Of a DNA stretch of 33,995 nucleotides, positions 17,634 through 22,443 are shown piece after piece. The DNA is from an uncultured Pseudobutyrivibrio sp. GTDB lineage: Bacteria > Bacillota > Clostridia > Lachnospirales > Lachnospiraceae. The stretch spans positions 1 through 33,995 of the forward strand of contig CAMEWP010000005.1 of the NCBI GenBank assembly GCA_945946605.1. The letters are read 5' to 3'. A program made the position numbers and the translations under genes. Under the pieces are notes generated by a model. The model had not been told where the DNA came from. It did no database searches and worked only from the letters and a program-made list of their open reading frames with translations. How positions within the stretch are numbered: position 1 is the first letter of the stretch; every line of letters starts with the position of its first letter.

Positions 17634-19267
17634 AACAGTTGATCGTACTGGTAAAACCCCTGATCCCGGTGATGGGGGCAGCAATTATCTTTGGCGTTGC
17701 AGGGTATCTGTGTGCCATTTTTCTAACCATCCTTACCGGATATGGGCTGCTTCAGATCATGACCCAGGGACAGGTTCTGCCGTCTCTTTTCGGAGTGCTG
17801 TTGCTGTTGGCTGTCAGCCGCGGGGTGTTTCATTATATTGAGCAGTACTGCAATCATTTTATTGCCTTTAAACTGTTGGCGCTGATCCGGCATCAGGTCT
17901 TTGGGGCACTACGCAGACTGTGTCCGGCCAAGCTGGAATCACGCCAAAAGGGAAATCTGATTTCCATTATCACTTCAGATATTGAACTTCTGGAAGTGTT
18001 TTATGCCCACACCATTTCCCCTATTGCCATCGCGTTTTTCACTTCCCTGATCATGGTTCTTTTCATCGGGCGGTTTGATCCCGGGGCAGGTGTCATTGCC
18101 CTGTGCGGATATCTTGTGGTGGGTGTTGCCATCCCGCTGAAGAAAGGCAGACAAGGTGCGGTGCCTGGCATGAAACTTCGGAGCGCCTTTGGGGAAATGA
18201 ACAGTTTTGTGCTGGATTCCCTTCGGGGACTGGATGAGACCATACAGTATGGTAAGGGTGAAAAACGAAAAGCGGATATGAACCAGAGATCCACCCATTT
18301 GGGCATGATCCAGAAAAGCCTTTCGAAACTGGAGGGAGAGCAGAGAGGTGTGTCCAATCTGGCAGTGCTTTTCTTTTCCTTTCTGGTTTTATTTTACATG
18401 ATGTTCCGGCTGTATAGCGGAAATGCGGATTTTGAGGATCTACTGCTGGCGGTGATCTCGGTGATGGGATCCTTTGGCCCTGTGATGGCTCTTTCCAATC
18501 TCTCCAACAATCTGAACCAGTCTCTTGCAAGCGGCAAGCGGGTTTGGGAAATCTTAGAGGAGCAGCCTGTGGTAGAAGAGGTCCCGGAGGATGCCATAGA
18601 TCCGGATGATCCATCTGTATCTTTGGCGTCTGACTTTGCCGGGGCAGAGGCAGACAGGGTAACATTTTCCTACGGAAAGGAGGATGTGCTTTCCGATTTT
18701 TCCATGAAACTGGAGCCTGGGAAGATAGTGGGGATCCATGGAGCCAGCGGTTCCGGAAAATCCACTCTTTTAAAACTTTTGATGCGCTTCTGGGATGTGG
18801 ATCAGGGAAGGATATCCATTTCCGGGGAGGATATCAGGAAGATCCCAACCAAAAAACTCCGGGATATGGAAAGTTATGTGACACAGGAAACCCATTTGTT
18901 CCACGATACCATTGCAAACAATATTGCCATGGGAAAGCTGGGAGCCACAAGAAATGAGATCGTAGAAGCGGCAAAAAAAGCTTCCCTGCATGATTTTATT
19001 ATGAGCCTTCCGCAGGGATACGATACACAGGTGGGGGAACTGGGAGATACCTTGTCAGGCGGTGAAAGACAGCGGATCGGGATCGCCCGGACATTTTTGC
19101 ATGATGCCCCGTTTCTGCTGCTGGATGAACCTACCAGCAATCTGGATGCCCTGAATGAAGGAATCATATTAAAATCCCTGCAGGACGCATCCATCCATAT
19201 GACCGTGGTGCTGGTATCCCACAGGCAATCCACCATGAACATCGCAGACCGGGTGGTGGAAATGTAA
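17630..19267 (+). CDS. ABC transporter ATP-binding/permease protein, CydC-like half
   Basis: 545 residues. Six membrane segments in the first 300 residues, then an ATPase with Walker A GASGSGKST (about 371), signature LSGGERQRIGIARTF (about 476), Walker B FLLLDEPTSNLD (about 497) and H-loop VLVSHRQST. The start at 17630 overlaps the partner's stop as ATGA. It should form a heterodimeric exporter with the preceding protein. The C-terminus stops at ADRVVEM, only about a dozen residues after the H-loop, whereas the sister protein continues for about 50; a slightly truncated end is possible. TAA is followed by TGA out of frame and by a sigma-G promoter. Confidence 0.85.
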   Translation: MKQLIVLVKPLIPVMGAAIIFGVAGYLCAIFLTILTGYGLLQIMTQGQVLPSLFGVLLLLAVSRGVFHYIEQYCNHFIAFKLLALIRHQVFGALRRLCPAKLESRQKGNLISIITSDIELLEVFYAHTISPIAIAFFTSLIMVLFIGRFDPGAGVIALCGYLVVGVAIPLKKGRQGAVPGMKLRSAFGEMNSFVLDSLRGLDETIQYGKGEKRKADMNQRSTHLGMIQKSLSKLEGEQRGVSNLAVLFFSFLVLFYMMFRLYSGNADFEDLLLAVISVMGSFGPVMALSNLSNNLNQSLASGKRVWEILEEQPVVEEVPEDAIDPDDPSVSLASDFAGAEADRVTFSYGKEDVLSDFSMKLEPGKIVGIHGASGSGKSTLLKLLMRFWDVDQGRISISGEDIRKIPTKKLRDMESYVTQETHLFHDTIANNIAMGKLGATRNEIVEAAKKASLHDFIMSLPQGYDTQVGELGDTLSGGERQRIGIARTFLHDAPFLLLDEPTSNLDALNEGIILKSLQDASIHMTVVLVSHRQSTMNIADRVVEM

Positions 19268-19277
19268 TGATATAAAC

Positions 19278-19307
19278 GCATATTTTTTCGCAAAACGACG
19301 CATACTT
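19278..19307 (+). promoter_or_regulatory. sigma-G-type forespore promoter of spoVAD
   Basis: GCATA (19278-19282), an 18-base spacer and CATACTT (19301-19307). This fits the B. subtilis sigma-G consensus GHATR-N18-CATWMTA in 11 of 12 positions and sits 27 bases before the spoVAD start, consistent with forespore expression of spoVA genes. Confidence 0.7.
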
Positions 19308-19333
19308 TCTCCAAAGCAGAAAAGGAGAAGGCA

Positions 19334-20353
19334 ATGGGACAGATTTGTGGATCACAGAGCCTCCGTTATACGGAGGCCTGTTATATTTTGGGAAGTGCTT
19401 CCGTGGTGGGAAAAAAAGAGGGAGAAGGCCCTTTGGGTAGCCTCTTTGATATGATTTGTGATGATGATAAATTTGGACAGGATAATTGGGAAAAATCGGA
19501 AAGTCAGCTCCAGAAGGAAGCCCTGACCCTGGCCATAGGGAAGACCGGGATCAAAAAGGAAGATCTGCGGTATGTGTTTGCCGGGGATCTTCTGGGGCAG
19601 AACATGGCCACCACCTTCGGACTGATGGATTTTCAGATCCCGGTTTTTGGCCTGTACGGTGCCTGTTCCACAGCGGGGGAATCCCTTTCCCTGGCTTCCA
19701 TGTGTGTGGCAGGGGGATTTGCGGACCGGGTGGCAGCGGTTACTTCCAGTCATTTTGCCAGTGCGGAAAAACAGTTCCGTTTTCCTCTGGAATATGCCAA
19801 TCAGCGTCCGCTGTCAGCCACCTGGACAGTAACCGGAGGCGGTGCCTACATTGTGGGAAAGAAGAAAAGTCCCGTGCGTATTGCCGGCATCACCACCGGG
19901 AAAATTGTGGATTACGGCATCAAAGATTCCATGAATATGGGGGCGGCCATGGCACCGGCAGCAGCGGATCTGATCGCAGCCAATCTTCAGGATTTTCAGC
20001 GGAAATCTGAGGATTATGATGCGGTGATCACCGGGGATCTTGGAGCGGTGGGACAGAAGATCCTCTTTGATCTTCTCTGGCAGCGAGGATACGACATTAC
20101 AGACAGGCATTATGACTGCGGTATGGAAATCTTTGATGCAAAAACCCAGAATACCTGCGCCGGAGGCTCGGGATGCGGCTGTTCGGCGGCAGTGTTATCT
20201 GCCTGTTTTCTTCCCCGCCTTATCAAAGGAGAATGGAAACGGATCCTGTTTGTTCCCACCGGAGCACTTTTGTCCACTACCAGCTTCCATGAGGGAGAAA
20301 ATGTGCCGGGGATTGCCCATGGTGTTGTTTTGGAACACGAAGAAAATGTCTGA
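19334..20353 (+). CDS. spoVAD: stage V sporulation protein AD
   Basis: 339 residues, thiolase-like fold. GSASVVGKKEGEGPLG, FAGDLLGQNMATTFG, the conserved cysteine C111 in YGACSTAGES, and CAGGSGCGCSA with ending ALLSTTSFHEGENVPGIAHG are all SpoVAD signatures. The protein binds dipicolinic acid and takes part in its uptake into, and release from, the spore across the inner membrane. AAAGGAGAAGG precedes the ATG. It is the first gene of the sporulation cluster here; spoVAC, which normally precedes it, is absent, and the ABC gene lies immediately upstream instead. Confidence 0.95.
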   Translation: MGQICGSQSLRYTEACYILGSASVVGKKEGEGPLGSLFDMICDDDKFGQDNWEKSESQLQKEALTLAIGKTGIKKEDLRYVFAGDLLGQNMATTFGLMDFQIPVFGLYGACSTAGESLSLASMCVAGGFADRVAAVTSSHFASAEKQFRFPLEYANQRPLSATWTVTGGGAYIVGKKKSPVRIAGITTGKIVDYGIKDSMNMGAAMAPAAADLIAANLQDFQRKSEDYDAVITGDLGAVGQKILFDLLWQRGYDITDRHYDCGMEIFDAKTQNTCAGGSGCGCSAAVLSACFLPRLIKGEWKRILFVPTGALLSTTSFHEGENVPGIAHGVVLEHEENV

Positions 20354-20370: not shown

Positions 20371-20727
20371 ATGGATTATCTGAAAGCCTTTTTGGTGGGA
20401 GGAGCCATCTGTGCGGCAGTGCAGATTTTAATGGAAAAAACGAAACTGATGCCCGGGCGGATCATGGTGCTTCTGGTGTGTGTGGGAGCTGTACTGGGAG
20501 CCCTGGGGATTTACCAGCCTTTTGCAGATTTTGCCGGGGCAGGTGCCACGGTGCCGCTGTCGGGATTCGGCAATCTTTTATGGAAAGGTGTCCGGGATGC
20601 GGTGGATGAGCAGGGATTTATCGGGATCTTCGCCGGTGGATTTGAATCCTGTGCTGTGGGGGTGTCGGCGGCACTGGTGTTTGGCTATCTGGCGTCTCTC
20701 ATCTTTAAACCTAAAATGAAAAAGTAA
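20371..20727 (+). CDS. spoVAE: stage V sporulation protein AE
   Basis: 118 residues with about three to four hydrophobic segments; DYLKAFLVGGAICAAVQILM, GRIMVLLVCVGAVLGALGIY and FAGGFESCAVGVSAALVFGY match SpoVAEb. It is an integral inner-membrane component of the spore dipicolinic acid channel. The start is 18 bases after the spoVAD stop, with GAAAGGAAAG upstream at rather long spacing. Expressed with spoVAD from the sigma-G promoter. Confidence 0.93.
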   Translation: MDYLKAFLVGGAICAAVQILMEKTKLMPGRIMVLLVCVGAVLGALGIYQPFADFAGAGATVPLSGFGNLLWKGVRDAVDEQGFIGIFAGGFESCAVGVSAALVFGYLASLIFKPKMKK

Positions 20728-20739
20728 CAGACCGGCCAT

Positions 20740-20769
20740 GTATAAAGTGTGGGGCCAGGGGTCATACTA
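20740..20769 (+). promoter_or_regulatory. near-perfect sigma-G promoter of the lipoprotein gene
   Basis: GTATA (20740-20744), exactly 18 bases, CATACTA (20763-20769): all twelve positions agree with the B. subtilis sigma-G consensus. The start codon of the lipoprotein gene is 40 bases downstream. Confidence 0.78.
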
Positions 20770-20808
20770 GGAGAGTAAAAAATCAACAGTCAAAGGAGAC
20801 GAAGAGTG

Positions 20809-21126
20809 ATGAAAAAATGGAAGTTATTTACCGCGGGCTGTCTGCTGGTACTGGTATTTGCCTTTGCAACAGGATGCGGCACCAATGGTAATATGGATGA
20901 TACCAACCAAAATAACACCAACAATGGGGTGGAAAATGAGGATGATTCCATAGGTAACGGAACCGGAACCGGCATCGAAAATGAAAATGGAACCGGTACT
21001 GGGAATGGCAATGGCAATGGAAATGTGGTAGATGATGTGGTGGATGGAGTCGGTGACGGCGTAAAAGACGTCACAAACGGCGTCGTAGACGGAACAGAAA
21101 ATCTCGTCAATGATGTGACCAGGTAG
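20809..21126 (+). CDS. small Asn/Gly-rich lipoprotein, probable sporulation protein
   Basis: 105 residues. A lipoprotein signal, MKKWKLFTAGCLLVLVFA followed by FATGC with lipid-bearing C23, ends at residue 22. The mature part is low in complexity: Asn/Asp/Gly/Thr-rich (repeats of NGTGTG and GNGNGN), then a C-terminal amphipathic stretch with a repeated D-x-V-x-[DG]-G-V pattern (VVDDVVDGVGDGVKDV). No catalytic domain. The GTG at 20806 is an alternative start, better spaced from GGAG at 20795-20798. Its own sigma-G-type promoter and position after spoVAE indicate forespore expression; it may be anchored on the inner spore membrane. I do not recognise the family. Confidence 0.8.
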   Translation: MKKWKLFTAGCLLVLVFAFATGCGTNGNMDDTNQNNTNNGVENEDDSIGNGTGTGIENENGTGTGNGNGNGNVVDDVVDGVGDGVKDVTNGVVDGTENLVNDVTR

Positions 21127-21141
21127 ATTTCTGGTAGTTTT

Positions 21142-21231
21142 TCGGGGACGGTTCTTTTGCCATGAGGGTTGTCCCTCCGGCCAAATCTCAGGCCGGAGGG
21201 ACACCCCTCATGGCAAAAGAACCGTCCCCGA
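21142..21231. repeat. long palindromic REP-like element
   Basis: A 27-base perfect arm (21142-21168 with 21205-21231), one mismatch, then 13 more pairs (21170-21182 with 21191-21203) around an eight-base loop. The outer arm reads TCGGGGACGGTTCTTTTGCC, a sequence that I associate with dispersed palindromes in Clostridia, sometimes next to REP-associated tyrosine transposases; no transposase is in the window. There is no T tract on either side, so it is not an ordinary intrinsic terminator, although it would form a very stable RNA hairpin. Confidence 0.8.
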
Positions 21232-21234
21232 CAC

Positions 21235-21262
21235 TTGTGAATTCCTCAACAATGTATATAAT
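21235..21262 (+). promoter_or_regulatory. sigma-A promoter of the amidase gene
   Basis: TTGTGA (21235-21240), 16 bases, TATAAT (21257-21262). The -35 element starts three bases after the palindrome. The predicted first transcribed base is at or beside the A of the ATG at 21269. Confidence 0.6.
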
Positions 21263-21268
21263 AGAGAT

Positions 21269-21934
21269 ATGTCTTACAAGAGAAAACGCAAGCTGACAAA
21301 AAACAGAAGAACGAACAGGATCTATGATCTGATCCTTCACTTTCTGGCACTGGTGGGGGCTATTACCCTGCTGTATCTGGCAGTCAGAGGGGTTTACGGA
21401 CTGGTGGCAGGTAAAAAGACGGTGCAGCAGGCACCGGAGATTTTGGAGGAGTATCTGACAGTGAATGAATACTCCCGCCCGGGGATCTCCCTGCCAAAGG
21501 TGAAAGGGATCGTGATCCACTATACGGCAAATCCGGGAACCGGAGCAGAAGCCAACCGCAATTATTTTGAGGGCCTGAAGGACAGTCATGACACAAAGGC
21601 CAGCAGTCATTACATAGTGGGGCTAGATGGAGAGATCATTCAGTGTATTCCCACATCGGAGATCGCTTATGCTTCCAATGACAGAAATACAGATACCATT
21701 TCCATTGAGTGCTGTCATCCGGATGAAACAGGTGTTTTTGACCCTTCCACCTATCAGTCCCTGGTGCATCTGACAGCCTGGCTTTGCGGCCAGTATGACC
21801 TGACCACGGAAGATGTGATCCGTCACTATGATGTAACAGGAAAAAATTGCCCGAAATATTATGTGGAGCATCCGGAGGCCTGGGAGCAGTTTTTGGCAGA
21901 TGTGGATGCCTATATTGAAGAAAATGGAGAGTAG
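21269..21934 (+). CDS. N-acetylmuramoyl-L-alanine amidase (Amidase_2), membrane anchored
   Basis: 221 residues: a basic N-terminus, one membrane segment (about 20-46) and an extracellular Amidase_2/PGRP-like domain. Zinc ligands expected for the family are visible as H84 (VIHYTA), H186 (RHYDVTGKNC) and C194, with SSHYIVGLDG and ISIECCHPD between. It cuts the lactyl-peptide bond of peptidoglycan. There is no Shine-Dalgarno sequence before the ATG, and the promoter places the transcript start on it, so translation may be leaderless. Followed by a PAP2 gene after eight bases; both could serve envelope or spore wall remodelling. Confidence 0.88.
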   Translation: MSYKRKRKLTKNRRTNRIYDLILHFLALVGAITLLYLAVRGVYGLVAGKKTVQQAPEILEEYLTVNEYSRPGISLPKVKGIVIHYTANPGTGAEANRNYFEGLKDSHDTKASSHYIVGLDGEIIQCIPTSEIAYASNDRNTDTISIECCHPDETGVFDPSTYQSLVHLTAWLCGQYDLTTEDVIRHYDVTGKNCPKYYVEHPEAWEQFLADVDAYIEENGE

Positions 21935-21942
21935 GGAATTCG

Positions 21943-22443
21943 ATGACAAAAGAGCAGTATGAGAACTGGACCAGAGGGATCAAAAGCAGTGCCAACGGCG
22001 TGACAATTTTGCGTTATGGAACCAGAGTGCTGACCGTGTTTACCATGTTATCCTATGGAATACTGTTGGTGTATGAAGCCTGCAGCAGACAGTGGACAGA
22101 ACTTTATCACAGCATTCTGGTGCCGGGAGTTTCCTTTGTGGTGGTCAGCCTGTTCCGGAGTGTGATTCCGGCAAAAAGACCCTATGAAGAGCTGGAGATC
22201 CAGCCGCTGTTACATAAGGAGACTGAGGGGAAGAGTTTCCCCAGCAGACATGTTTTTTCCATCTTTATGATCGCCATGACCATGGCAGACCATAATATAT
22301 GGCTGGGACTCTTTTTTATGATCTTAGGTGTTGTGCTGGCGGTGTTTCGTGTGCTTGGTGGAGTGCACTATGTCCGTGATGTGGTGGCCGGTGCAGCCAT
22401 TGGAATCTTATGCGGAATACTGGGCTATGTTGTGATATTTTAG
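21943..22443 (+). CDS. PAP2-family phosphatase
   Basis: 166 residues, multi-pass membrane protein. The three phosphatase motifs are recognisable: C1 K78-R79-P80 (with PAKRP), C2 SFPSRH with H103, and C3 R136-x5-H142-x3-D146 (RVLGGVHYVRD). It probably dephosphorylates undecaprenyl pyrophosphate or phosphatidic acid-type lipids at the membrane. The start lies eight bases after the amidase stop, with GTAGGGAA as a weak binding site, so it is co-transcribed and fits a cell wall role. Confidence 0.85.
   Translation: MTKEQYENWTRGIKSSANGVTILRYGTRVLTVFTMLSYGILLVYEACSRQWTELYHSILVPGVSFVVVSLFRSVIPAKRPYEELEIQPLLHKETEGKSFPSRHVFSIFMIAMTMADHNIWLGLFFMILGVVLAVFRVLGGVHYVRDVVAGAAIGILCGILGYVVIF

Follow-up and report, generated by a model that had tools for sequence, protein, structure and literature searches.

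We analysed a 33,995-nt stretch of DNA from an uncultured Pseudobutyrivibrio sp. (contig CAMEWP010000005.1, positions 1 to 33,995; hereafter the window), in which a gene directly behind spoVAE encodes a lipoprotein of 105 aa. Judged by its sequence, this protein belongs to a real, conserved and hitherto undescribed family, and its expression in the forespore, under sigma-G or sigma-F, is highly probable. The gene lies on the forward strand (20809..21126; ATG at 20809, stop codon TAG at 21124-21126; open reading frame and alignment A1 of 51 family members) and is preceded by a ribosome binding site read from the sequence (AAAGGAG, 20792..20798, forward strand) and, 39 nt upstream of the gene, by a candidate sigma-G-type promoter, GTATA-N18-CATACTA (20740..20769, forward strand), made up of GTATA (20740-20744), an 18-nt spacer and CATACTA (20763-20769). 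Read directly, the box matches GHATR-N18-CATWHTA at 12 of 12 positions: the agreement at every consensus position claimed by the first-pass annotation, which had been made from the sequence alone, is borne out, as is its placement of the gene directly after spoVAE (20371..20727, forward strand; TIGR02839, 3e-40). Sequence evidence lends good support to its proposal of a new lipoprotein of the forespore, with the box recurring at more than one genomic location, the family co-occurring with spoVAC/VAE and no known family accounting for it.

Promoter box and distribution of the family

Over both strands of the 1.89-Mb assembly, the exact sigma-G consensus is present seven times, which puts a chance match at any of the ~50 positions of the intergenic gap at ~1e-4. 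A reversed-pattern control gave 15 copies genome-wide, so that the consensus is not enriched and its count is no evidence by itself: the case for the promoter therefore rests on conservation in relatives. Three other exact copies precede genes named by eye as YtvI-like (L101), DUF1540-like (L104) and a CGCG-rich small protein (L102), and the remaining copies look intragenic.

Using SpoVAD as anchor, 80 loci were fetched from the nearest relatives. Of these, 78 were usable, with spoVAE recognised and sufficient sequence downstream of it, and in 63 of the 78 spoVAE is followed by a lipoprotein gene built on the same plan. Boxes were scored as positions matched out of 12, with 355 genes from the same loci as controls. 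A box of at least 11/12 lies upstream of 51 of the 65 spoVAE-linked members (window included) as compared to 9.3% of the controls (Fisher 2e-30), and it was also found upstream of 15 of the 21 members located elsewhere (Fisher 1e-10 against the same controls). Seven of these 21 exhibit the 12/12 box, which is present in 2.5% of the controls (5e-6 for the 12/12 comparison); across the 86 members scored, the full consensus is found in the window and 16 others. Shuffle nulls gave rates similar to those of the control genes, and a chance promoter match was rejected on the basis of conservation against both. A GHATR-N17/18-CATWHTA box, the sequence pattern expected of a gene in the sigma-G regulon, is thus present upstream and conserved in relatives. 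The window genome itself encodes sigF with spoIIAA/AB as well as genes for small acid-soluble proteins, one of which has a box of the same kind (ACATA-N17-CATACTA), and a sigG-like gene scoring 400 bits, below the NCBIfam cut-off of 457.

As an even sample of Lachnospiraceae, profile A1 and the spoVAE model were run on the same set of 150 Lachnospiraceae genomes, one per genus. A spoVAC/VAE match was obtained in 104 of the 150, and all of the 62 best full-length A1 matches (E≤2.1e-7; short frames, profile covered in full; tallied by hand) fall in these 104 genomes (hypergeometric ~2e-14, a figure that treats genomes as independent and is weakened by their relatedness). The next full-length match, at E 2.7e-7, belongs to a genome without a spoVAC/VAE match (G088). 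Absence from most spore-forming relatives, the outcome that the first-pass annotation had named as speaking against its proposal, was not observed: the family is present in at least 62 of 104 sporulation-positive genera. Copies away from spoVAE adjoin dapA-dapB, fbp and/or hisA, or other genes (gene names assigned by eye and through tblastn comparison of the loci); those near dapB, fbp, hisA or purine genes are found at L003-L012, L105, L110, L117, L120, L121 and L132.

Protein architecture and comparison with known families

Family members share a common plan of signal peptide, predicted disordered Asn/Thr/Gly/Asp linker and acidic amphipathic 11-residue-repeat segment. In the window protein, the predicted signal peptide runs through the lipobox ATGC to the putatively lipidated Cys23 (20809..20877, forward strand; MKKWKLFTAGCLLVLVFAFATG followed by C); C23 and G24 are invariant in A1, and Cys23 is also invariant in A2. 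The Asn/Gly/Thr/Asp-rich linker follows (20878..21018, forward strand), predicted to be disordered from its composition and an AlphaFold pLDDT (predicted local distance difference test) mostly <60; a lipoprotein with an Asn/Gly-rich linker, as described in the first-pass annotation, was thus found again in lipobox and linker composition. For the C-terminal segment (21019..21123, forward strand; NGNVVDDVVDGVGDGVKDVTNGVVDGTENLVNDVTR), the D-x-V-x-[DG]-G-V repeat described there is real, although it is better understood as an 11-residue hendecad: the hydrophobic period is 3.68 (11/3 = 3.67) in the 65 spoVAE-linked and 22 other members, with a lag-11 autocorrelation of 0.58-0.65. In the AlphaFold model of one relative (L021), the segment contains a helix at 90-116 of low confidence. 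Mature members consist of 23% Asn, 16% Asp, 16% Thr and 15% Gly. Lys and Arg make up ~5% of mature residues, and one of the two is the last residue in 53 of 84 members (L016-L132).

The window gene has no Pfam or NCBIfam match above cut-off, in line with the earlier failure to recognise a family. None of the 51 A1 members is described by a Pfam or NCBIfam model, searches of Pfam, NCBIfam and the PDB returned only weak or partial matches, and the lipoprotein family is undescribed in the open-access literature searched. For annotators, this is a sporulation-linked family not yet in Pfam or NCBIfam.

The closest parallel is provided by the YhcN/YlaJ lipoproteins (TIGR02898/PF09580, including SpoVANJ2), which are expressed in the forespore and located at the inner spore membrane, as is predicted for the new family, and with which it shares the lipoprotein signal peptide (lipobox and invariant Cys23). 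In spite of this, membership was rejected: TIGR02898 gives 15.4 bits on the window protein against a cut-off of 99.75, the best match among family members reaches E 1.8e-4, and the match in the window protein is limited to profile positions 3-70 of 158, that is the leader and the N-rich part, with the C-terminal half of the profile unmatched and a hendecad segment in its place. PF09580 itself is above cut-off in none of the 150 Lachnospiraceae genomes, the window genome included, and the B. subtilis control was positive. GerD, the parallel offered by the first-pass annotation, is likewise a lipoprotein whose proposed site of action is the inner spore membrane; Pfam and NCBIfam searches of the family gave no GerD profile match, and YhcN/YlaJ/SpoVANJ2 are the closer parallel.

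A hydrophobic period near 11/3 and predicted disorder of the protein alone are also exhibited by group 3 late embryogenesis abundant (LEA) proteins, alpha-synuclein and perilipin, whereas the new family is predicted to be exported, lipid-anchored and strongly acidic; no LEA Pfam match was found among the 51 members. Hendecad-tail lipoproteins occurring across Clostridia (for example L167, L171 and L180) have the same leader, linker and 11-residue repeats, yet mostly lack a strong sigma-G-like box and adjoin none of the tested neighbour genes. Clostridia lipoproteins outside the family (L165-L184) can carry near-perfect 11-residue repeats, such as GAGNAVKDVTD in L171.

Candidate role at the inner spore membrane

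As judged from the conserved box, sigma-G RNA polymerase would transcribe the gene from its own promoter in the late forespore. The lipobox indicates that the product would be exported, lipidated on Cys23 and anchored on the cortex-facing side of the inner spore membrane, in its outer leaflet, and location of the lipoprotein on the outer face of this membrane is very likely. There, the disordered Asn/Thr/Gly/Asp linker would bear the C-terminal acidic 11-residue-repeat segment, which probably folds as an amphipathic helix only upon contact with the membrane or a partner; we somewhat favour such an induced helix. Most likely, the job of the protein would be the conditioning of the inner spore membrane, of a complex embedded in it (SpoVA, for instance) or of both. 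Taken as a whole and without commitment to a single partner, this reading of the gene and its product appears the better supported choice on balance.

In Bacillus, the proposed job would be the work of the YhcN/YlaJ/SpoVANJ2 lipoproteins, which Lachnospiraceae appear to be without. SpoVANJ2, a YhcN/YlaJ-type lipoprotein encoded in the B. anthracis spoVA2 locus as NJ2, complexes with SpoVA2 and is predicted to be an outer-face channel cap; a SpoVANJ2-like gene is absent from the spoVA operons of C. difficile and of B. subtilis (PMC13059800). Low inner-membrane fluidity is set partly by YhcN/YlaJ proteins, according to a passage of PMC12331253 that cites Flores 2023. Because YhcN/YlaJ is missing from the 150 genomes and a precedent exists in SpoVANJ2, a predicted cap, and because compartment and timing also fit, functional replacement of the YhcN/YlaJ type is our leading hypothesis, albeit a tentative one. 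Stated in full, and with similar reserve, Lachnospiraceae may have swapped the YhcN/YlaJ/NJ class for an unrelated acidic hendecad lipoprotein that conditions the membrane or SpoVA from outside; if true, a LEA- or synuclein-like protein would have been recruited to spore dormancy. Lachnospiraceae count as a major group of gut spore formers, and little work has been devoted to their spores. With a putative forespore lipoprotein family present in 60% or more of the sporulation-positive genera of a lineage in which YhcN/YlaJ is undetectable, there is a concrete gene for studying inner-membrane, dipicolinic acid (DPA) and germination control in these spores.

Several observations weigh against the reading as a whole. 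With a median net charge of -18, mature members are highly acidic, so that binding to an anionic membrane would, speculatively, have to be bridged by Ca2+ or in some other way. In the window protein, AlphaFold models the C-terminal segment as disordered (pLDDT ~47), although such low-confidence models may be what is to be expected of a helix needing a surface or partner. In the even sample, ~40 sporulation-positive genera are without a strong A1 match, and a spoVAE-adjacent copy is present in only ~8 of ~103 spoVAE-positive genomes: the conservation beside spoVAD/AE that the first-pass annotation had suggested for Lachnospiraceae holds within the clade of near relatives, whereas strict conservation beside spoVAE was not upheld in the one-per-genus sample. 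The operon context hence says little about SpoVA; as read from these sequences, placement behind spoVAE is a feature of a clade and no proof of a role in the DPA channel. Finally, because of the low sequence complexity, the E-values overstate how certain the homology is between copies linked to spoVAE and those elsewhere.

Alternatively, the protein may be an accessory dedicated to SpoVA and a counterpart of SpoVANJ2: placed on the SpoVAC/SpoVAE channel at its outer face, it would control the passage of Ca-DPA, and its acidic helix might bind Ca2+. The gene order in near relatives, the SpoVANJ2 precedent, the absence of YhcN/YlaJ and the copies adjoining dapA-dapB, part of the DPA-precursor pathway, point in this direction; however, in most genera the gene lies apart from spoVA, dapB is not its neighbour in every case, dapAB serve mainly lysine and cell-wall metabolism, and no globular domain that could serve as a cap is predicted, which makes this accessory role rather unlikely. 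Slightly less probable again is an early-forespore lipoprotein under sigma-F, or sigma-F and sigma-G, that functions in engulfment or in building the cortex and not in DPA or germination. In many relatives the sequence is CATAATG and lacks the final A, and in the window G's precede CATACTA besides the final A, so that some use of sigma-F is possible; the full 12/12 consensus in the window and 16 others and the box of the same type upstream of spoVAD in the window argue against it. Finally, an ordinary surface lipoprotein of growing cells with a promoter match by chance would suit the low-complexity composition and the similar repeat lipoproteins outside the family that mostly lack a strong box, but it is very improbable given a box conserved at unrelated genomic locations and best matches found exclusively in spoVAC/VAE-positive genomes.

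Neighbouring genes and a palindrome with recurring arms

Upstream of spoVAE lies spoVAD (19334..20353, forward strand; PF07451), with its own sigma-G-like box, GCATA-N18-CATACTT, 26 nt upstream (region 19250-19333); it is preceded by an ATP-binding cassette (ABC) transporter gene. In the window genome, spoVAC is not adjacent to spoVAD and lies on another contig (G000:C138). Downstream of the lipoprotein gene, Amidase_2 and PAP2 genes were found (21269-22443); among the 63 fetched loci with spoVAE and lipoprotein gene, a PAP2 relative is present in 12 and an amidase relative in two.

A consensus scan gave a possible intrinsic terminator overlapping the end of the lipoprotein gene (21118..21140, forward strand). 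Between the lipoprotein and amidase genes lies a near-perfect long palindrome (21141-21235; fold z -12.65), the arms of which (GGGGACGGTTCTTTTG) recur at several other sites of the assembly. This recurrence suggests a dispersed element resembling repetitive extragenic palindromes (REP) or miniature inverted-repeat transposable elements (MITE), and the palindrome was rejected as a gene-specific terminator on the same ground.
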